Below, piece by piece: positions 258-50,344 of a stretch of DNA of 64,000 bases. Numbering within the stretch: position 1 is the first letter of the stretch; every line of letters begins with the position of its first letter. A program made the translations under genes and the position numbers. The notes beneath the pieces were generated by a model. The model ran no database searches and had not been told where the DNA came from. It saw only the letters and a list, made by a program, of their open reading frames with translations. The DNA comes from Metridium senile (taxonomy: Eukaryota > Cnidaria > Anthozoa > Actiniaria > Metridiidae): assembly GCA_949775045.1 (NCBI GenBank), contig OX459107.1, positions 11,931,250-11,995,249 of the forward strand. Direction: 5' to 3'.

Positions 258-22623
<22,366 letters not shown>

Positions 22624-24617: not shown

Positions 24618-25847
24618 CTTCAGATAGACAATACTATGATTTTTAATAATCGAAAAAACTTTTCAAAACATGATTTGAGTCCGGCAAAGAAACAACATAG
24701 CAAACGAGTTCACAATCGAGTTGAAATAAGCTAAATTAAAGTGAGTTAATTTGACTTACCTAACGGCAAACTTTACAATACAAATGATAAACTTTACTGA
24801 TACAAAAGTCCTTGTTATCGTAAAAGTCTGTTAAATTTCAGCATCAGTTTGGCCACTTGTCAATCTCGAGCCCAGCGTCACGTCTGGCTTTTTGTCAGCG
24901 GTCTTATGGCGCCCGACATTAGACTCTGGGGGAACGGAATTTTCAGCTCCGATTTTGGAGTTCCGGTTTCTATTGCGCATGCTTAGTTAATATTATAATG
25001 ATCTGTGGGTTTGGGCATCCTGTGCATTCTCGTACCCAGGCTAACTCGGTCGTTCATCTCTCCCGTCATTACCTCTCACGGCTGTTTCGTTTGCGACATT
25101 AGGTTCCAGGACTCATCTGGTCATCTTCGCGCGGTTGTAACATAGAAACGAGGTTTTGCAATGGCGGCGTGGATGATTAGATCAGATGTACTATAGCGGC
25201 TGACAAATACTCGTATTTTTTTATCTGTTATCGTGATATAATAGTAATTTTATATCTCCTGCAGTGTTAAGAGTAATATTTAAGTCTTTTTGAGAATCTT
25301 TTAATCCACCAAGTTGGCAATCAAGATATGTTTTTGAGCTTTCATTGCCCTCGATGCGAAATGTCAACGGCAGAGATGATTTCAAACCTATGGTATTTTC
25401 AAGGATTATTTCTCGACACTGGAACATTTGATTAATCAGGTAAGCAATAAATACGATAGAGAAATTGATAATTTATTGTTAGAATTTGATTTATTTCAAT
25501 GAACTTTTTTTTTTGATGATAAATGAACAATATTGGTCTACATAGAATTTACGATCATGTCCTTCGAAATCAATGTCCTGTCGAACGAGTTGATTTCCCG
25601 CTCATTTTTTGCACGGCGCGTCTACACTTTTCTCGCTTAAAAAGTTTGTTCCCCGGCCTGGCTATACATTGCATGTACTTGGCTTTTGGCTGGAGGTTTT
25701 TTAACGCAAACAAAGAAGGTAAGCTGTAACTTTTTTTTATTTTTATTTTTTTTAAAAAAGCAAAAAACTCTTATTTATTTGAGATTTCAAGTGACTCTAT
25801 CAATAAACTGGTTCATGACAATTTTATCTCTTTTAGGGAATTGAATA

Positions 25848-26126
25848 ATGCCCAAAATAAGATTTAAAAAGCCAAGAGGGGTGATTTTTCCAGTAGAGAA
25901 GGATCAGTAAGTACACAAATGTGTTTTGTTCACTTGGATGATGCTGGTTTTATCTTGTTATTGGAGTTCTTGTAAATTTACACAAATGTTTTTATATTTT
26001 AGGACAGAGGAAGAGAAGAGGGAAGAGGAAGAGAAATGCTTAAAAAGAAGGAAGGAGTTAGAGGAAAAGCTTGAGGAAGAGGGCAAGAAAAAGAAAAACA
26101 ACAAATTACAAAAAAATCCATTTTAA
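25848..26126 (+). CDS. Small charged protein encoded at the far end of the RAG1-like transposon
   Basis: Exons 25848-25906 and 26003-26126 join in frame (donor CA|GTAAGT, acceptor TTTTAG) to give 60 residues: a basic start (MPKIRFKKPRG), then a Glu/Lys-rich likely helix. It converges on the transposase gene, whose stop is 363 bp away. Possible upstream exons are hinted at by donors at 25439 and 25719 and an acceptor at 25836; one frame before 25439 contains HCPRC. No family is recognised. It may be an accessory protein of the element or a chance ORF. Confidence 0.4.
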
Positions 26127-26488
26127 AATTCCTACTATTTTTTATTTTATGTAATTCTTACTTGTATTTTATTTGTATACCAGTCCTAAATATGTACAAA
26201 AATATGTATTGTCAGTTTTGAAAATTAAATTATTTACATGCCGTCCTATGTACAAAGCGTCACATTTATGTTCAATATTCTATTTCACATATTTTTTTTA
26301 AGAAACTCAATATTATATATGTCTAAATACAATCCTATATGTACATTGCATTATTTATATCCATGCTATTTCTCCTACTAGTCAAATGTTTTTTAGTGCT
26401 TCCAAAAACAGTCCTATATAATTGCACTAAATAGCACTGATGAAACAATACAAAATAAACGACTTAAATCAATACAGCTCTAGAACAA

Positions 26489-28818
26489 TTATTCTTCATG
26501 GATTTTCCTTTTCTTCAATTGTGGTGCTCTGATTATATTTGATGGATGGCATCGCCTGTGGTGTTCTTCCATGACTTTTTCTAGCCGTTCAGATCCTCTT
26601 CTTATACAAGCATAAGATCGTAAAAGGTCATTAACTTCATGGTGGATACTTTTGACTCCTTGCTCACCTAGCAATCCCATGCCAGTTCCATATCTATATA
26701 TTTAAAAATATGTATGTGAATATGAATAGAAATAACACAAAAAATAAAAAAATTAGATTAAATTTATATTTTTTAAAAGATCAAAAATCATCATCAGTTT
26801 CAACTCTAAAAATTATGGTAAAATATATGATGTGTTAAAAATTGATACCTCTTAACCCATGTAATCATGTGATCTTCTAAAAAATGCATCTTTGGCAGGA
26901 CAGTGGCATGTGGAAAGTTTTGTCTGTATATTTTCATGAAACTTTCGATTTCTATCTCTGAAATGAGAAACAGATATTTAAGTACATGATAATTGGTAAA
27001 CGTCAATTTATGATATTGATAACTATTACCCACCTAGCTTTACAATTTCTCCATGAGACAACTTGTCTTTCCTTGTATACATCCTGTGGCATTTTCCAAA
27101 GGATTCCAAAGTCTCATGGAATTTTTGGCTAATACTGTTTGCATCTTGGATCAAAGTTGGCGCTATTTTTACACACACAGCAACTGGTATTTGAGTTAAT
27201 TGCTTGATGTTTTTAACCTAATACAATAAAATGTTTGAAAAGAACAAAGTGAAAAAAAAACAACAGTTTTTGAATAACACATGACATGATAAATGTGATT
27301 AAATACATTGATGTACCTTAAGACATTTATGTGTGTGATTGCCATTGAATGTCCCCCCATGGTAAGCTTGGCGCTCAGCACCAATTTGTTTCAATATTTT
27401 TGTTATTTCCTCTTGACATGGTCCATTTCTGCATGATTTTGACCGTTTAGCTAAGATTTCTTTTTCCTGGCACCAACAAAATGCATATCATTAATATTAA
27501 TTTTCAATGTTATGCCTTTCAAGGTTAGATTTACCATCTCAGCAACTGCATGTCTCAACTGCGCCGCTTGTGTCTGCAAATCTCTTCCTTGTTTTTCATT
27601 CTGGGTGTTTAATAAAATGTATGTTGCAATTCTTTCTAGTTCGTCTGCTTTCTGTTTTTCAAAGTTGGCATGTAGCTCTAGTTCATTTGCTTTTTGTAGA
27701 TCTTGTACATGTGCTTGGAAATCTTGGCTTCCATGCTATGAGATAGATAAATAATGTAAGACCAAAATGCATTTAATTTTTTAGAAAAGTATAGATTTAA
27801 ACTTTATGATAATGCTACCTTATCTTCTTTTCCAGCCAAAGAAGGTGCAATGTTGACATCCAACAGTTTCAGAGATTGCTCTAACAGGTCAAAAAGGCGA
27901 TTGAAAATCCCTATACTTATATGTAAAGCTGGTGGACACACCTGCAACACAAAGAAAACAATTTTCCAAGGTAAGTACTAAATAGTTGATTAAAACAAAA
28001 CATACTTACATACTTAGTACATGTACCTGATCAAGTTCTATTTGGAACATAGGCTTTCTGATAGCATTGTTGTATTCCTTTGCTTTTTTAAGGATTGAAC
28101 CTGCTTCTTGAAATCTTTTGTTGTCATCAACAATCCCTTAAGTAAAATACATAGATTTACACAATATATCTTGATAATTATCATTTATATTATTAAATTC
28201 AGTACCTTGTACAGTTCTTGATTCCTTTCGACCTCTTTTACTCAATGGTACTGCGATGTCCTCCTGTGTAATCAAACACCATAGACAAAAATGCCTTCCT
28301 AGAAGTAAAGCAGAATATGATTTATATAATGATATTAATTAATTCAATTAATATTTTATACAAAAAAGAAAAACTTAGATATTGAAGAATATTTTGTTAC
28401 AAAGAAATACTTGTCTGCACTACAAAGCAATTATTAATGCAATATACATACATGTACATGTATTTGAACTCATTTGATTTAGCTGTGCTCTTACCACTTG
28501 CTCCTGAAATACCATATATAGTACACAGGAAAGCATAATCTCCAAACAGGAATACCTTTATTCTCCATTCCCTATGGAAATGGAAATTAGATACAGTTTT
28601 CTCTAGGAAAAATTAGCAAGTTTCTAAATTTTATGATGCTGTCTTATAAACTTGCACATTTATATAACGGCAGAGGCTAAACTTAGCATGATAAAAATGA
28701 ACTATATTGTGTAAAATGAAAAATGTTAAGTGTAAAATGTAAAGTCAGTGAGAGAGTGAATACAAAACACGACCACATCAGCCATGCTGTAAAATATATA
28801 TAGTGTATAAATAAATAC

Positions 28819-28879
<61 letters not shown>

Positions 28880-31800
28880 TATATCATGTTTTAACAAGGC
28901 CCAAGACCCTTTTGAACCTCATAAAACACTGAGCACTGTTCATTTATTAGACTATAATCAACAAATGTTTTACATTTTGTACTTTGAAAAGGACTTTTTA
29001 TATGTTACCTCCATTGATGTCTATTAAGGTCTTCAATCACATTATTGTAGCCTAGTAGTCCAAGAGTCAGATTATAGGGTGTGTCCCCTGCTTCAAACAT
29101 TGCAAAAGTTACTGTGTTTTTTGTTGAGTTTGGGTTTTTCAAGTCCCTATTTCGAACGCCATTTTGAAACTCCCACCACCTTTATCTCCTCCAAACTTCA
29201 GCCATATTTCATTGGATGGAATTAAGCCATTGTGCCAAATTAAATCTCCATTTCTGTAAGCAATATATCAGTTGTCATGAAGTTAAATCAAACTGTATAA
29301 TATTTGTATACAATGTATTGTGAAATTTAGGACATCTATTTTTATACTAAAAGTGAAAATGCCATTGTTTTAACCTTTTATGTTCTTCCAAATGATTGAT
29401 AATCATTTCTTTTAGACGCTTAACCCTTGCACACGGTGCCATGCGAATTTCATTAGAACTGCTCTTTTTAGTGAACTCAAATGGCATGTCCTCAGAATGA
29501 ACGTCTCCTAGTTTCTGTTTCAAACATGAAAATAATGTGATAGTTAAATATGATAATTTTCTTCAATGGAGTTAACTTTAATTAACTTTAATTTAAAAGT
29601 TCTAATTGCCTGTTTATCTGCTACAATTCTTTGCTTTTTCTCACTTGCAAGTTGGACTCCCCATGATGACAACCACCTGCACATATTAATGAGAGCATTG
29701 TCAGTATTTTTGGTCTGAGCACTTGTTTGAGGCTTTCTTCTACAAACCAACTATACCCTATTTTGTATGTAAAGTTTAATAAACAAGCAGGAGTGTTTTA
29801 TCAGGATTTAAAACCACGAGGCGAAGCCAAGTGGTTTTAAACCTGAAAAAACACGATCTGCGAGTTTATTGAACTTCAAAAACTCTAACCTATATTTTGT
29901 GTTTTTGTAAAAAAGAAATCAAGGATTTATGAAAGTTTATTAGAGAAAGTTAAGGTTTAAGTTTATGTAAATTAGGGTGAATCTATAACTTCAGTTAAAA
30001 CACTCGTCACGGTTACGATTTCTTTTGAAAATTTCTCATGAATTAATGAGTTTTTGAATGTTTTGATGCAAAATTCTATAAATTGTGGATTGTTATTAGT
30101 GATTTGTCAAATAAATCAAAAGTGGGCAGCGAAGTTCAATTATTATTAACATGCCATTGACATTTCTGTTTTTCTTTTTTGACATATGGAAAAAAACACT
30201 TTTCAACTCACAACAATGTCCAATTAATATGAAATTAACAGCAGTATCTATATCATACCAGACCTTCTAATATGTCTTATTTTATTCCAGGGTATTCCCA
30301 ACTCAGCTTTCATGGCAAGGGCATCTTCAGCGGAGACATCCACAGAAACCCCTGCATCTCTTAGAATAACTTGACGCTGCTCCTTGTTTATCATTTGTAT
30401 TTCTTTTTGATGTTGTATTGCAGTATTTTTCATCCCTCCTCCACTGATAGTATCTCTGCAGTGTGCAATGGTAGCAGCTCGTCGTTGTACAGTTCTGTTT
30501 GAAGCAGTGCTGCTTTCCACTTTAGTTTTATTGATAACACATAGTTGTATGGGCTGCAATTGTACACAATGTTTTAACAAGATATTTGAGTTTCTGCAAA
30601 ACCCTGTCTCGTGGTTATTTAATACTCATTTTACCTTTTTATTTTAGAACATAAAATTTATTTCATGAAATTAGCTATATATATCTTATTAAACAGTTTG
30701 ATGTGTAATATGGCTGGATATTTTACCAGTGAAATGCTGTATTTTGATGAGCCTCCGGGCGAGTCAAAATGCAAGTTAGCGAGTAAAATATCCAGCCATA
30801 TAACACATCAAACTGTTTAATAAGTTATTTATTATCCAATCAAAAAGTTTTTGTTCTTTTATAATGCAAAATATTGTTTTACTAGATAGACGAGTAAAAA
30901 TATCTCTGGATATTTTTACTTGTCTACTACTAGTTGGAAAATAAGTGTCCTTATTGTATTTTTATAACACAAGGGATGGCATATCTAATCATTAAGGTTT
31001 CAAATGTCCAATGTGTGTGCCATAGACGACTTTCATAAATGGCCGCCACTAATTATCATAATTTTTAGAATTGATGTTTTAAGAAAGCTATCATATGATA
31101 GACATTCATCATGACAATAACTTGTGAAAGTTTGAGAAAAAACGATTGAATTTTCAAGAAGCAATAAAAGTTTGAAAAATCAGAAATACACCAAAACGAG
31201 GCATCAAAGGCTTCGGCAGAAAATTACATATAAATCTCTACATTTTTCATTGAGCATAGCTTCTTTGGTATTTTAGCCTGAGCATCAAAACCTTAAAACA
31301 AATTATTTCAGGTGGTTCTTTCATATGACAGTGCTAAAATATTAAAATATCTGTTAACATATGGTGTTTATGAAAATGGTCTATAGCAGTCGGTTATTTG
31401 AAATTACTTTTAATACATATGGTACTTACAGTTCCGCCAGTTCTCAAAATAACGTTCGGAGATGAACACGAGGATAATTTTCTTTTCATAAGGTGAGTGG
31501 TCAAAAGTTCTTCTGTACTTGATAATGGATCCTTTGTTGAAGTTTTCAGTATAGTTTCTATTGTCTGGTCACGGCGTTCGAGGACATAGTGTTTACAAAA
31601 TAATTCATGTTCTTGAAGTTGTTCAAGTTTCAGTACTGTTTTGCATATCCTGCATGAGGCACACGAAGTTGCTATCAAGTTTAGTAGAAGGCGTGGAGCT
31701 GTTTTTAAATGTGTTACTGTCAGAGCTGTCTTGCACACAGGGCATGTAGAGTTATTCGTGTTGGAAAATTGTAGCCATTTCTCAATACAGCTGGCACAAA

Positions 31801-32347
31801 AAAAGTGATCACAAATTCCGGCTTGTACTGGTCTATCAAGTACTTCTTTACAAATTGGGCAAAGTAATTCCTCACTTATGCTGACAAACCTTTCAATGGG
31901 AGGCATATTCAAAATTATTGGCTGTGGTATTATGCTTGGTTGTATCTTTAATTGCGAGGCACTAATGTTTAAAGTCGATGTTTCAGTTTTATTACTTGGC
32001 CTCCCCCTTCCCTTCCTCTCTCTAGGCTTTTTACCACCACAGTTTCTCTTTTCAAACATTGCACACACTTCACAACCATCGATCTCGTGGGCTTTCCACT
32101 CTACTGGCTCCACCGTACTTTGGCAAGTTTTATTTTTGGCAAGTTTCGTTGTTTTCACGAAGCAATTTATACAGACATCTTTGGGGTGAATTTCAGTTTT
32201 ATCATTGGCAACATCTATTCTGAACCCAGTTAACAGCTTTTCTGCTACATGATACTTTTCGGTTGAATAAGAGTATTTTTGTTTCCCCTCAAGACCACCA
32301 CAGACACGACAAGACTTCTTCAATTCACGTTGATGATATTCGTCCAT
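26489..32347 (-). CDS. RAG1-like transposase, 14 exons, one frameshift
   Basis: Exons in transcript order: 32347-31430, 30553-30264, 29676-29577, 29514-29375, 29253-29009, 28571-28495, 28298-28206, 28136-28027, 27941-27819, 27735-27535, 27466-27317, 27217-27034, 26957-26849, 26693-26489. They give about 981 residues (human RAG1 has 1,043). The N-terminus matches RAG1 motif by motif: CRVCGG, FRIDV, IHPKDVCINC, VEW..H....CEVC. Then a C3HC4 RING (CPICKEVL ... CPVCK, residues 163-205) and a RAG1-type second finger (CRICK...HELFCKH, 232-253). The C-terminal part aligns by eye with the RAG1 core: IWLKFGGDKGGG (first Asp region), CLWC, PPALHISIG, GTFNGNH, KMHFLEDH and GMGLLGEQG (Glu region). The position of RAG1 Asp708 appears as Ser. 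Exon 5 is one base short, closing the frame after FEIGT. Several donors are weak (GTTAAC, GTTAAA, GTCTGG). Probably a recently inactivated transposase, unless the missing base is an assembly error. Confidence 0.8.
28820..28879. repeat. (ATT)n microsatellite
   Basis: About 20 ATT units in an intron of the RAG1-like gene. Confidence 0.92.
29786..29876. repeat. Hairpin of ~90 bp in RAG1-like intron
   Basis: Arms GTTTAATAAAC...TTTAAAACCAC and complement around GAGGCGAAGCC. Small non-autonomous element relic. Confidence 0.7.
30692..30823. repeat. Hairpin of ~130 bp in RAG1-like intron
   Basis: Arms AAACAGTTTGATGTGTAATA and complement flank a GATGAGCCTCCGGGCGAGTC centre, so another short MITE. 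Flanks are AT-rich and the target duplication is not resolved. Confidence 0.75.
31025..31382. mobile_element. 358-bp MITE, ATA target duplication, copy 1
   Basis: Ends GACGACTTTCATAAA and TTTATGAAAATGGTCT, with ATA on both sides. It is the same family as 58037-58423 in the opposite orientation, and lies within the first intron of the RAG1-like gene. Confidence 0.8.
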
Positions 32348-32847
32348 ATTTATTCGCGTTGAAACCTTTCAAATTGCAACAAAATAAAAAGTTTCAAAAC
32401 CAACCACAAAAAAAAGTTCATTAGCCACAATTCACATTTTCAAGCAGACAATGAATTAAAAATTGAAAAAAAATAGTTTGCTTTATCTGAGTTTGCTTGA
32501 AAAGGTGATTAACACACTGTGTTTTATTTCTATTTTGATACTTTTGCATTGTTACGCGAAAAAAGACTCGCGACTACGAGTTGGTTTTTCGTCAAATAAA
32601 ATCTTCTTTAAATCGCAATGAAGTATTCAAAGGAAGAAAAATAGTTCGACTTACCTACATGTTGTTATTTTTGCCGTTAATACGTTAAGAAAAACAATGT
32701 ATTACTATTTTTCGGCACTTTCAATTATTTTCAAAATCGCCGCCATTTTGTTGCTAGGGAAAAAAACCATCCTAGCGACGAGTTTTGACCGCGCGCGGTC
32801 CTGGAACCTAATGTCGCGAAAAACAAAGAATGAAACAGCCGTGCTCT

Positions 32848-42896: not shown

Positions 42897-44330
42897 TTAG
42901 TTTTTCAATTTCGTGGCTGTAAATGCTTTTTTACTGGCAATAGACAACGCTACTGCTCGAGTTAGACTAGAAAACTTATTCCGACCAACACCCGAAATAG
43001 ACCGAACACTACCGCTAGAAGAACGACGTCCATCCGAACGCTTATCGGGATCATGTTCCACAATAACTGGGGCATGCACATTCGAGTCATCAGTTTTTCT
43101 TGGCTTTACGCCCTTTCTATAAGATGACTCAGGCGAACACTGTTCACCATATAGATTCATAATCCTAGTGAGAGAGTTAACCGTTGGTGAATTGCGTACT
43201 GTAAAATGAGAATGCCAACTTGCGTCACTAGACTGTGTCTTGATTGATGGTGGTCGCCGGTGGGCTGGAGCTGTTTTACTTCTATGGTGTCTTGGTATAA
43301 GTTGACTGGGTATTGGTGTGGCATCAGTAAGGAATATTCTGCTTGGGACGTCACATTCTAGATTTTTTCTCACAAATGCGGAATGAGGCCTGGGCCGAAT
43401 AATCGGTTTTTCATTTGCGACATCTTCCTCGAGTGTTTTTTTATCTGTTGCTAAGCAACTGTTAATCAAATGTGTTCTTGTTAGGTCAACAGCTACTCCA
43501 ATGTTTTGATCACAACTCACTTCTTCAAGTACTTCTAATAAAGGTTGTTCTTTAGTTTCCGTAGCTTTCTTCTTAAAAACTTGAAAAGAATCGTGTTTTC
43601 TCTTCAAAAGTTTTTTGTGTTCAGATGGCGTGATGTTTTGTTGAGTCAGTTTAACAGCTTTTATTTCACGATGATAGATGTCGTTAGAAACACGATGTTG
43701 ACGACCAGCTTTGATCCTTTCCCAACCTTTGTCATAGTACTGTTTCTTTGTTGTTGTAGCTTTTGAACTACGATGATCAACGAGAAACGGGTTTACTTGT
43801 ACATTTGTGGATGCGTGACCTTCCTCTAACAAAACCTTAGCACATTCGGCCATGCCCAGTCGTACCGCCTCAAGGTATGGTGTCCTATCAACATTGTTTC
43901 TAGTATGCATGTGAATATGGAATTTGTTCATACAATCAACAAGTAATTTGACAATATATATGTTACCGTTCCTAACAGCATGAATTAGAGCAGTGTTCCC
44001 TTCCACATCTTGTTGATTCAGGTCAATATCATGTAGTGATGTTTCTAACACAAGGCTTACAATATCATCTTTGGAATGAATGCATGAGTATGCCAACGCG
44101 TGGTGACCTTCTGGGTCTGTAGTATTCACATCCGCACCATATTCAATAAGCAGCTTGATTAAAATAGTTCTTGTTCTTTGTTTCTTGTCGTCTATCTGAC
44201 ATGCTCGTAATAAAGGACTATAGCCATACTCATCTACAAACTCAGCTCTTGCCCCTAACTGCAGTAGTATTCTCGTTTGATATATCCTACAATCCGTGAT
44301 TGCTGCCATTAATCTCTGCTCGGTATTCAT
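42897..44330 (-). CDS. Intronless ankyrin-repeat protein, 477 residues
   Basis: Residues 1-185 form about five ankyrin repeats, with recognisable GADVNTTDPEGHHALAYSC, DVEGNTALIHAVRNG and DRTPYLEAVRLGMAECAKVL cores. The rest is low-complexity, basic and Ser-rich with likely disorder, ending TRAVALSIASKKAF. The start ATG at 44330 opens directly on the first repeat. The layout (N-terminal ankyrins, long disordered basic tail, single exon) recalls ANKRD34-type proteins, but the match is not strong enough to name it. Function probably protein binding; partner unknown. Confidence 0.75.
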   Translation of the reverse strand: MNTEQRLMAAITDCRIYQTRILLQLGARAEFVDEYGYSPLLRACQIDDKKQRTRTILIKLLIEYGADVNTTDPEGHHALAYSCIHSKDDIVSLVLETSLHDIDLNQQDVEGNTALIHAVRNGNIYIVKLLVDCMNKFHIHMHTRNNVDRTPYLEAVRLGMAECAKVLLEEGHASTNVQVNPFLVDHRSSKATTTKKQYYDKGWERIKAGRQHRVSNDIYHREIKAVKLTQQNITPSEHKKLLKRKHDSFQVFKKKATETKEQPLLEVLEEVSCDQNIGVAVDLTRTHLINSCLATDKKTLEEDVANEKPIIRPRPHSAFVRKNLECDVPSRIFLTDATPIPSQLIPRHHRSKTAPAHRRPPSIKTQSSDASWHSHFTVRNSPTVNSLTRIMNLYGEQCSPESSYRKGVKPRKTDDSNVHAPVIVEHDPDKRSDGRRSSSGSVRSISGVGRNKFSSLTRAVALSIASKKAFTATKLKN

Positions 44331-44575
44331 CTTTGAAGATCACAAATGCTATCAACAGTTTTGTAGAGCAGGTTTAACTGGTAAAACAGTGAGCTGCTTT
44401 TTCTTTTGTTACCGTTCGTTAAAGTGAATTGCTTTAGCAGACAGTCAATTATGCCTCTAATGTTTCATGGTTGCTACGCACTGTCAAAATACTATTATGT
44501 TTGTTCAAGTTGATGCGTGATGGTTAATCTGTCGAGATTAACGCCAATCAGCAAACACGTCATTTTTTTAATAAC

Positions 44576-44990: not shown

Positions 44991-48346
<3,356 letters not shown>

Positions 48347-48499
48347 ACACGCATCAACTTGCTGAATATTCGGCATTTCGCATTGCGAGTTTTTAAAGTT
48401 GAATCAAAAACTCCCAACGTGTTGCCGTATCCGAAAATCTGCGTACGTGGCATGCATGTCACAGGCATTATTTTTTTGCGCAACGGCGTATAGCTGTGT

Positions 48500-50344
48500 A
48501 TGAACACAACTGACAATGAGGACTGCCATCGCTATGATAAACAACCTCAGCCACCTTGTGAATTGAGAACTTTTGATCCCGTAACATCTGAAGCTGTTAA
48601 AGCCGTCATAATGTCCTCTCGCACTAAATCTTGCTCGTTGGACCCGATACCTACAGTCCTTCTAAAGAAATGCATTGATGTCTACTTCGATCATTAACTC
48701 ATCACTTACGACTGGTGTATTTCCCATTGCAATTTAAGCATGGATTGGTCACTCCTATCATCAAAAAGAAAGACTCTGATCCTGAACACCTCAAGAATTA
48801 TCGTCCTATTACCAACTTATCCTTCTTGTCGAAGACAACAGAACGCATCGTATCTAAACAGCTACATCATTACTTGCAAGAAAACGGACTCTATGCCCGA
48901 ATGCAGTCTGCTTATATATAGACCAAACCACAGCACGGAGACAGCACTTTTGAGTGTACAAAATGACATAAGTATAGCATTGGATAACAATGACGTCATC
49001 CTGGTCTTGCTGGACTTGAGTTCAGCTTTCGACATGATTGATCATCAAATTCTTCTCAAGCGACTCCAGGTACGGTACGGTATTCATTGTTTGGTTCTGG
49101 CATGGATCAACTCCTACTTTTAAGTGAAAGAAAACAATCAGTAAAGATTGGTCAAACAACATCTGTACCACACTCTTTATCTCGAAGTGTACCACAAGGC
49201 TCGGTTCTTGGACCATCCCTTTTCTCACTCTATATTGCACCTATTGAAGATATCATAGAAAGTTACGGTCTCAATTGTGCTGTTTATGCTGATGATACAC
49301 AACTGTATGTAACATTAGAGAAGTCTCAATACCTAGATAGTGACATTGCTAACCTTCAGCATTGCATCGCATCTAGCCTCCATTGGATGGCAGCTAACAA
49401 ATTAGTGTGTAACGAATCCAAGACTGATGTTATTCAGTTTTCGTCACGATTTCAGAAACATGACTTTTTACCACACATCAACATTGGTGAATCTGAAGTA
49501 GCACTCACGTCTTCAGTGCATGACCTTGGTGTTACTCTTGACAGTCATCTCACAATGAACTCGCATGTAAACCAACTCTGTAAATCGGCATCTTTCTCAC
49601 TTAGACGTGTAGGTCAAGTCAGGCGGTATCTTGATGATGTGAGCACCGAGAAACTTATCCACGCTTTAATAACGTCAAAACTTGACCAGTGTAATAGCAT
49701 GCTCTATGGGTTTCCTAATAATTAAAGAGTTGTCCAAGATTCAAAGAATTCAAAACTTTGCTGCGAGAATAGTATCTTGAACCAAAAGATGTGAACATAT
49801 TACGCCAGTTCTAAGAAAACTCCATTGGCTCCCCATCAAGAAGAGAATTATCTACAAGATCATTTTACTCGTCTACAAATCTCTTCATGGTCTTGCTCCG
49901 GACTATCTCACTAAATTATTGAAACCATACAAGCCAACGAGAGTCCTAAGATCAGCATCCAAGCAACAACTCAAAGTACCTACATCCAGAACAAAGTACT
50001 ACGGTGGACGTGCGTTCTCAATCTACGCACCAAAGCATTGGAACACCTTACCACTGCACATCAAGCAATCTGCTACTCTGGACTCCTTTAAGAAGGAACT
50101 TAAGACTTTTCATTTTTGCAACGAAATAAATTTTCTTAATTGACATGATATTTAACACGATATATTTTTTCTTTTAGTTATTATTTATATTTTTATATCT
50201 TTTAGCTATTATATTTTTATACGTTATATCTTGAGATTTTTACTAATATATATATACACATGATTATTTATTTTTTAGCTACTTTTTCACTTTAAGTATT
50301 TGTAAAGACCATTGAGGCTAGTGTAATGGGCTATATAAGAATTA
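48500..50344 (+). mobile_element. Degenerate L2/CR1-like LINE
   Basis: Fragments in shifting frames give a LINE reverse transcriptase: LKNYRPITNLSFLSK, LLDLSSAFDMIDHQILL, SVPQGSVLGPSLF, the catalytic YADDTQLYV, and a typical C-terminus (PKHWNTLPLHIKQSATLDSF). Frame breaks near 48697, 48920, 49122 and 49725 make it a pseudogene. The 3' end is AT-rich and runs into an ATT/ATC microsatellite. Confidence 0.85.

Follow-up and report, generated by a model that had tools for sequence, protein, structure and literature searches.

The window analysed here is a stretch of 64,000 nucleotides from contig OX459107.1 of the cnidarian Metridium senile (assembly GCA_949775045.1). It contains a DNA transposon of 7,767 bp (25077-32843, CTCT on either side), most of which is taken up by a minus-strand transposase gene of 14 exons, whose product resembles almost all of the recombinase RAG1. 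A previous reading of the letters alone (the sequence-only reading) had described this gene within an element bounded by terminal inverted repeats (TIRs) and a target site duplication (TSD). Three points go beyond that description: the window copy is defective, its ends are bipartite and asymmetric, and a small second gene is convergent with the transposase gene. The ends and the small gene are as follows.

25073..25076 (no strand), left TSD CTCT, 4 bp
25077..25088 (+), outer element of the transposase 3′ end, CACGGCTGTTTC
25089..25094 (+), 6-bp (short) spacer
25095..25109 (+), inner element of the transposase 3′ end, GACATTAGGTTCCAG
25848..25906 (+), small gene, coding exon 1 (60-amino-acid protein in all)
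26003..26126 (+), small gene, second coding exon, which includes the stop codon
32801..32815 (-), inner element of the transposase 5′ end, GACATTAGGTTCCAG
32816..32831 (-), 16-bp (long) spacer
32832..32843 (-), outer element of the transposase 5′ end, CACGGCTGTTTC
32844..32847 (no strand), right TSD CTCT, 4 bp

The transposon and its copies

The outer element, a 12-mer (CACGGCTGTTTC), is exact at 25077-25088 (+) and 32832-32843 (-). By itself it is weak evidence, since at up to 2 mismatches the window contains 4 matches, to be compared with 2.30 in shuffled sequences. The 20-bp inner repeat GCGACATTAGGTTCCAGGAC is also exact at both ends (shuffles expect 0.00), and at up to 3 mismatches its matches in the window are confined to these two places. 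The termini read CAC..GTG and the duplication is 4 bp long (CTCT/CTCT), not 3 and not 5. A TIR/TSD-bounded element with a 4-bp duplication, as first described, is thus what lies here.

Study of the 389-Mb genome revealed 48 occurrences of the 12-mer against 10 for a reversed control; the 12-mer combined with the inner element occurs 29 times and the inner 15-mer 36 times, each against 0. Twelve complete copies, grouped as family A, differ from the window at 0-0.46% of the bases compared, with gaps disregarded; a 3.3-kb insertion is present in one of them, and an additional damaged copy lies on C6. A thirteenth complete copy, L009, belongs to a family B, whose transposase is about 45% identical to that of family A (tblastn segments). 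The sequence-only reading had proposed a genome search for further copies sharing the ends and the 4-bp duplication, and such copies were indeed found: exact 4-bp duplications are seen at 9 of the 13 complete copies, the family B copy included. A 5-bp duplication is found at none (0/13) and was rejected as the TSD. One family A copy, L015, which lies on this contig at a distance of about 6.6 Mb, is identical to the window copy over all 7,767 bases and has another flank with its own duplication, CCTG.

The transposase gene has the following structure, all on the minus strand.

31430..32347 (-), exon 1, with the start codon, the Chapa/RAG1 N-terminal domain, the RING and a second finger
32054..32311 (-), Chapa domain, residues 13-98 approximately; residues 39-106 match PF12560
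31721..31870 (-), RING finger, about residues 160-209
30264..30553 (-), exon 2
29610..29676 (-), exon 3, upstream of a GC-AG intron
29375..29514 (-), exon 4
29009..29253 (-), exon 5, with the first catalytic Asp and, in the window copy, a one-base frameshift
28495..28571 (-), exon 6, second catalytic Asp
28206..28298 (-), exon 7, CxxC motif
28027..28136 (-), exon 8
27819..27941 (-), exon 9
27535..27735 (-), exon 10
27317..27466 (-), exon 11
27034..27217 (-), exon 12
26849..26957 (-), exon 13, Hx4H motif
26489..26693 (-), exon 14, stop at 26489
26651..26653 (-), Lys codon aligned to RAG1 E962; Glu in 10 of 12 copies

Because of the frameshift in exon 5, which is shared with L015 and absent from the other 10 of the 12 copies, the frame of the window copy is not open throughout. 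The phases of the 14 exons nevertheless fit, since other copies have open frames: in 8 of the 12 family A copies there are 970 codons before the first stop, and two further ones carry other frameshifts, unlike that of the window copy and L015. The 14 phase-consistent exons of the sequence-only reading were therefore right as to phase, with two amendments, namely that exon 3 has a GC donor (29610, in 12/12 copies) and that exon 5 of the window copy carries a one-base frameshift.

The small gene is intact in 11 of the 12 family A copies. The family B copy L009 has a counterpart with the same two-exon order in the right place, the BLAST matches being non-significant (E 1.5 and 5.6). The match in L032 is clearer (E 0.005), with a second exon that is similar by eye. 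The 60-amino-acid protein has no Pfam match, and our guess would be an accessory DNA-binding or regulatory peptide.

Domains and classification of the transposase

Exon 1 encodes a match to RAG1_imp_bd (PF12560; E 6.6e-6, 26.3 bits for a Pfam cut-off of 23.3), followed by a RING (Pfam, E 8.4e-10). Protein searches brought 105 relatives, none of which carries a transposon name; query residues 1-430 gave a single match, from Ptychodera. A profile of 27 relatives, picked mainly by length out of the 105, matched mouse RAG1 residues 100-403 with an E of 1.7e-23. The N-terminal RAG1 landmarks noted by eye are thereby confirmed, the presence of the Chapa domain being judged by PF12560 and by this profile match. 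PF12560 is found at E 0.01 in 14 of the 27 profile relatives, and DUF1280 covers the remaining protein in 25/25 (chosen from 28) and 26/27 relatives, two sets that overlap. Precomputed annotation joins PF12560 to the transposase domain PF06918 in P0007, a protein of a lancelet (Branchiostoma), and in eukprot entries with the label Em, taken here to be the sponge Ephydatia. The Antedon protein P0067 has DUF1280 alone at E 0.01; its N-terminus has Chapa- and RING-like cysteines by eye. A viral structure library gave no match at E <= 0.001, and no relative was confirmed in the viral contigs and prokaryote genome contigs scanned.

A weak likeness was also seen between the Chapa domain (exon 1, 31430-32347, minus strand) and the insect ZAD: zf-AD is found in 2/25 relatives at E <= 0.01, and 7po9 (LD30467p), a Drosophila ZAD, comes at E 0.55. 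The two domains may share an origin.

For the C-terminal half, no significant sequence match to RAG1 was obtained, two PDB profile searches being significant in the RAG1 N-terminal half only. The RAG1 core fold is present in the predicted structures of two relatives (P0004 and P0066). Numbered as in the query protein of the P0004 comparison, Asp 506, Asp 577, the CxxC at 596/599 and the Hx4H at 903/908 are conserved in 11 or 12 of 12 aligned relatives. In larger sets the exceptions are gaps and a few changes: the second Asp is kept in 22/25 relatives (2 Ile, 1 gap) and the first Cys in 20/27 (2 Asp, 1 Gly, 4 gaps). The spacings D-19-C, CxxC and Hx4H are identical to those of RAG1, whereas the distance between the two Asp is 71 versus 108 and that from CxxC to Hx4H 304 versus 207. 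Two Glu residues follow Hx4H. Of these, the second corresponds more probably to E962, with which it is aligned by the profile, within a non-significant segment (score -4.0); in the P0004 model this Glu stands at a helix start. A Glu is present there in 10 of the 12 copies and in 47/47 relatives with the motif found, among the 105; one relative has Asp in the alignment column. The window copy and the identical L015 have Lys. Of the claim that the C-terminal half is a RAG1 core, what stands is the fold of the two predicted relatives and the series D, D, CxxC, Hx4H, and what does not is a significant likeness in sequence. The joining of both RAG1-like halves in one protein, within a transposon that duplicates 4 bp, was correctly recognized.

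Its frameshift and the Lys aligned to E962 make the window copy defective. Since it is identical to another copy, it has most simply moved in trans, and both it and L015 were probably mobilized by intact copies. The transposase would use its D-D-E site to cut at the CAC termini, and would join the ends with a 4-bp stagger.

Chapaev transposons have CAC termini and 4-bp duplications. According to Kapitonov & Koonin (2015, PMC4411706), they carry the RAG1 N-terminal 'Chapa' domain, to which a RING is added in two subgroups, and their transposase is a distant relative of other Transibs. A 2025 paper on TET-transposons (PMC12730594) gives C(2)C and H(3-4)H between the second D and the E as common motifs of the CMC/CMCT clade, with ends that are mostly CA..TG and duplications of 2-5 bp. 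Here we find the CAC..GTG ends, the 4-bp TSD (9/13), PF12560, a RING after the Chapa domain and, in the family, a D-D-E core with C(2)C and H(3-4)H, the window copy having Lys for Glu. We are therefore confident that this is a cut-and-paste element of the Chapaev group (CMC/CMCT clade) that has amplified very recently and whose transposase has Chapa and RING before a DDE core of RAG1/Transib type. The sequence-only reading had made it a third, new lineage. That novelty is not upheld: PMC4411706 already describes Chapa, RING and a distant RAG1/Transib-type core for Chapaev, so the supposed lineage is the Chapaev group, and PF12560 together with PF06918 is also found in P0007 and the Em entries. 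The same reading had seen no RAG2 partner; no RAG2-like gene was found by us either, in a Pfam scan of six chosen non-transposase open reading frames (ORFs) of the element, made without spliced-gene prediction.

Several points weigh against this assignment or its parts. As many as 19 of the genome's 48 exact 12-mers lie more than 30 bp from any exact inner element, so that the 12-mer alone is no marker of the element; of nine solo 12-mers that were read, five lack the inner element, four of these sharing another repeat sequence. Four of the 13 complete copies have no exact 4-bp duplication: one has clean ends and unlike flanks, one has 3/4 bases, and two have damaged ends. The placement in Chapaev relies on domains, motifs and ends. 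The likeness of the core to RAG1 is one of predicted fold and motif order, not of a significant sequence-level profile match, and the folds are those of relatives, not of the window protein (P0004 is 33% identical to the query).

Two other explanations were considered. One is that the gene is a domesticated transposase, i.e. a host gene, between chance repeats. A long multi-exon gene might suggest this, but complete, nearly identical copies lie at no fewer than 12 different sites, and 9 of the 13 complete A and B copies have individual exact 4-bp duplications; this refutes it and leaves it virtually no probability. The other would derive the element from a RAG-like transposon (ProtoRAG/TransibSU) by loss of RAG2L and a change in duplication length to 4 bp. 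The presence of Chapa and RING beside a RAG1-type core, a structural Z score to RAG1 slightly above that to HzTransib, and a convergent second gene would all agree with such an origin. However, 5-bp duplications are found at 0/13 copies, all exact ones being of 4 bp; the core lies beyond the reach of the profiles employed, while TransibSU cores are more than 30% identical to RAG1 (PMC4411706); the six chosen ORFs have no Pfam match, and the second gene encodes 60 amino acids, again without one. We regard this origin as very improbable, and retain the Chapaev group.

As a Chapaev transposon, the element resembles those with Chapa, RING and a distant RAG1/Transib-type transposase in a single protein, but its bipartite unequal ends and its second gene are without mention in the passages of PMC4411706 covered, in whose main text 'asymmetr' occurs 0 times. 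No statement on such Chapaev ends or on a convergent small gene was found in the literature covered, most subscription papers and Repbase reports lying outside its scope. The architecture is thus already known, and the ends seem to be new. ProtoRAG/RAGL elements share with this one the N-terminal zinc motifs, RAG1-type core, CAC ends and asymmetric bipartite TIRs, and are unlike it in their 5-bp duplications and core nearer to RAG1; they also have a RAG2-like partner gene, which the scan of six chosen ORFs did not find here. Transib differs by having neither Chapa nor RING and by its 5-bp duplications. Vertebrate RAG1 has the same order of N-terminal domain, RING, finger, core and perhaps helices like its nonamer-binding domain (NBD), but it is domesticated and works with RAG2. 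N-RAG-TP of Aplysia, which is described as made up entirely of RAG1 N-terminal-like sequence (PMC8355894), also places such sequence in a transposon and may belong to the same group.

Bipartite ends with unequal spacers

In all 12 complete family A copies, the spacer between the 12-mer and GACATTAGGTTCCAG is 16 bp at the transposase 5′ end and 6 bp at the 3′ end. In the complete family B copy the two lengths are exchanged, the 5′ spacer being of 6 bp and the 3′ spacer of 16 bp. There is therefore one spacer of each length in 13/13 complete copies (12 in A and one in B). Partial family B copies have 6 at the 5′ end (L029) and 13 at the 3′ end (L030), and a third lineage, L031, about 40% identical to both families in exon 1, has 6 bp at its 5′ end, its 3′ end not having been found. 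The sides of A and B have not been confused, because the gene runs in the same direction relative to the subterminal sequences, and in every complete A or B copy CGCGCGG lies at constant distances beyond the inner element (5 bp at the 5′ end, 18 bp at the 3′ end). Among 36 inner elements the spacer is 6 in 20, 16 in 14 and 13 in one (an A-tract in a damaged copy), the remaining end being truncated. The 29 patterned ends do not include seven of the 36, and six of these seven are non-truncated with a mutated or lost 12-mer; counts for ends without an intact 12-mer rest on the remaining letters (by eye for L071, L072 and L073).

These ends recall the recombination signal sequences (RSSs) with 12/23 spacers: both are two-part signals, with spacers that differ by about one helical turn. 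Vertebrate RSSs are unlike them in not being TIRs of one element and in their heptamer-nonamer sequences. Each end could be read twice, the terminus by the core and the inner element by a helical region resembling the RAG1 NBD; a 10-bp difference in spacer (one helical turn) would keep the inner element on the same DNA face and make the two ends unlike. Published work points both ways: ProtoRAG TIRs have 27/31-bp spacers and asymmetric pairs work better (PMC8289069), while invertebrate RAGL is said to be relatively insensitive to asymmetry (PMC7204232).

One possibility is that Chapaev transposases follow a rule of the 12/23 type, in which a 6-bp end pairs with a 16-bp end. Asymmetric two-part signals would then be old in RAG1-type transposases, not inventions of RAG/ProtoRAG, and the exchange between A and B would indicate that one of each is kept, whatever the side. 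We hold this tentatively, as possible but somewhat doubtful. Against it counts that any role of the spacer difference in function is something we infer from comparative evidence only, the family A copies being too young to be independent. The asymmetry could also be an inherited accident: a single ancestral 10-bp indel, after which recombination at the inner elements flipped the body in one family, without any pairing rule. Both-end data do come from two families only, B being represented by one complete copy; the long spacers of A and B have their first 6 bases in common (6/16 overall), as for one inherited long outer end changing sides; and the CGCGCGG spacing (5 and 18 bp) stays on its side. 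Against the accident, both lengths are exact in A and B despite drift of the spacer sequences (6/16 and 1/6 bases alike) and about 45% transposase identity, L031 keeps 6 bp at its one preserved end, and the inner elements number 20 at 6, 14 at 16, one at 13 and one truncated. We give the accident an even chance and place it somewhat above the spacer rule.

The origin of a complete RAG1 and that of the 12/23 rule in V(D)J recombination are long-standing questions. A recently active transposon with several open copies, both RAG1 halves, no RAG2-like gene found and unequal RSS-like ends would make both testable in one system: whether RAG1-type cutting proceeds without RAG2, and whether spacer asymmetry controls pairing outside the RAG lineage.

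Other repeats and features of the window

A variant of family A is seen as four solo 3′ ends (L032, L033, L071 and L073) with a similar outside flank, ATGATCGT, and it seems for this reason that the variant end has been captured into another dispersed repeat. L066 and L067 (C1:25552500 and C4:5038800) are a different repeat, 99.6% identical over 4,955 bases, with an open frame of 848-900 amino acids (GGDYKF..CAWC) followed by an array of a tandem unit of about 160 bp. The transposase search also brought C1:25556015, C4:5042344 and C9:9199045, which were rejected as other repeats (their frames read GQGVEK and ND by eye) and kept out of every spacer count; at C9:9199045, CAC..GTG ends with 4-bp duplications were looked for and none found. 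Other weak matches of this search are C3:6185821, C3:19347978, C13:12596547, C14:4684050 and C15:7298794.

YqaJ-like recombinase domains are often carried by mobile elements, and one is found elsewhere in the window, in a 601-amino-acid ORF at 11818-13623 (+). At 14951-16576 (-), an open frame of 541 amino acids has THAP, HTH_Tnp_4 and DDE_Tnp_4 domains, and we take it to be a PIF/Harbinger-like transposase. SH3 exons between about 9192 and 22164 (+; Pfam for 9192-9533, the rest by eye), with many long minisatellites in between, look like a RIM-binding-protein gene. At 42897-44339 (-) lies an open frame of 480 amino acids with ankyrin repeats, and at 46420-50143 (+), adjoining an (AAT)50 run, there are pieces that by eye resemble reverse transcriptases of non-LTR (long terminal repeat) retrotransposons.
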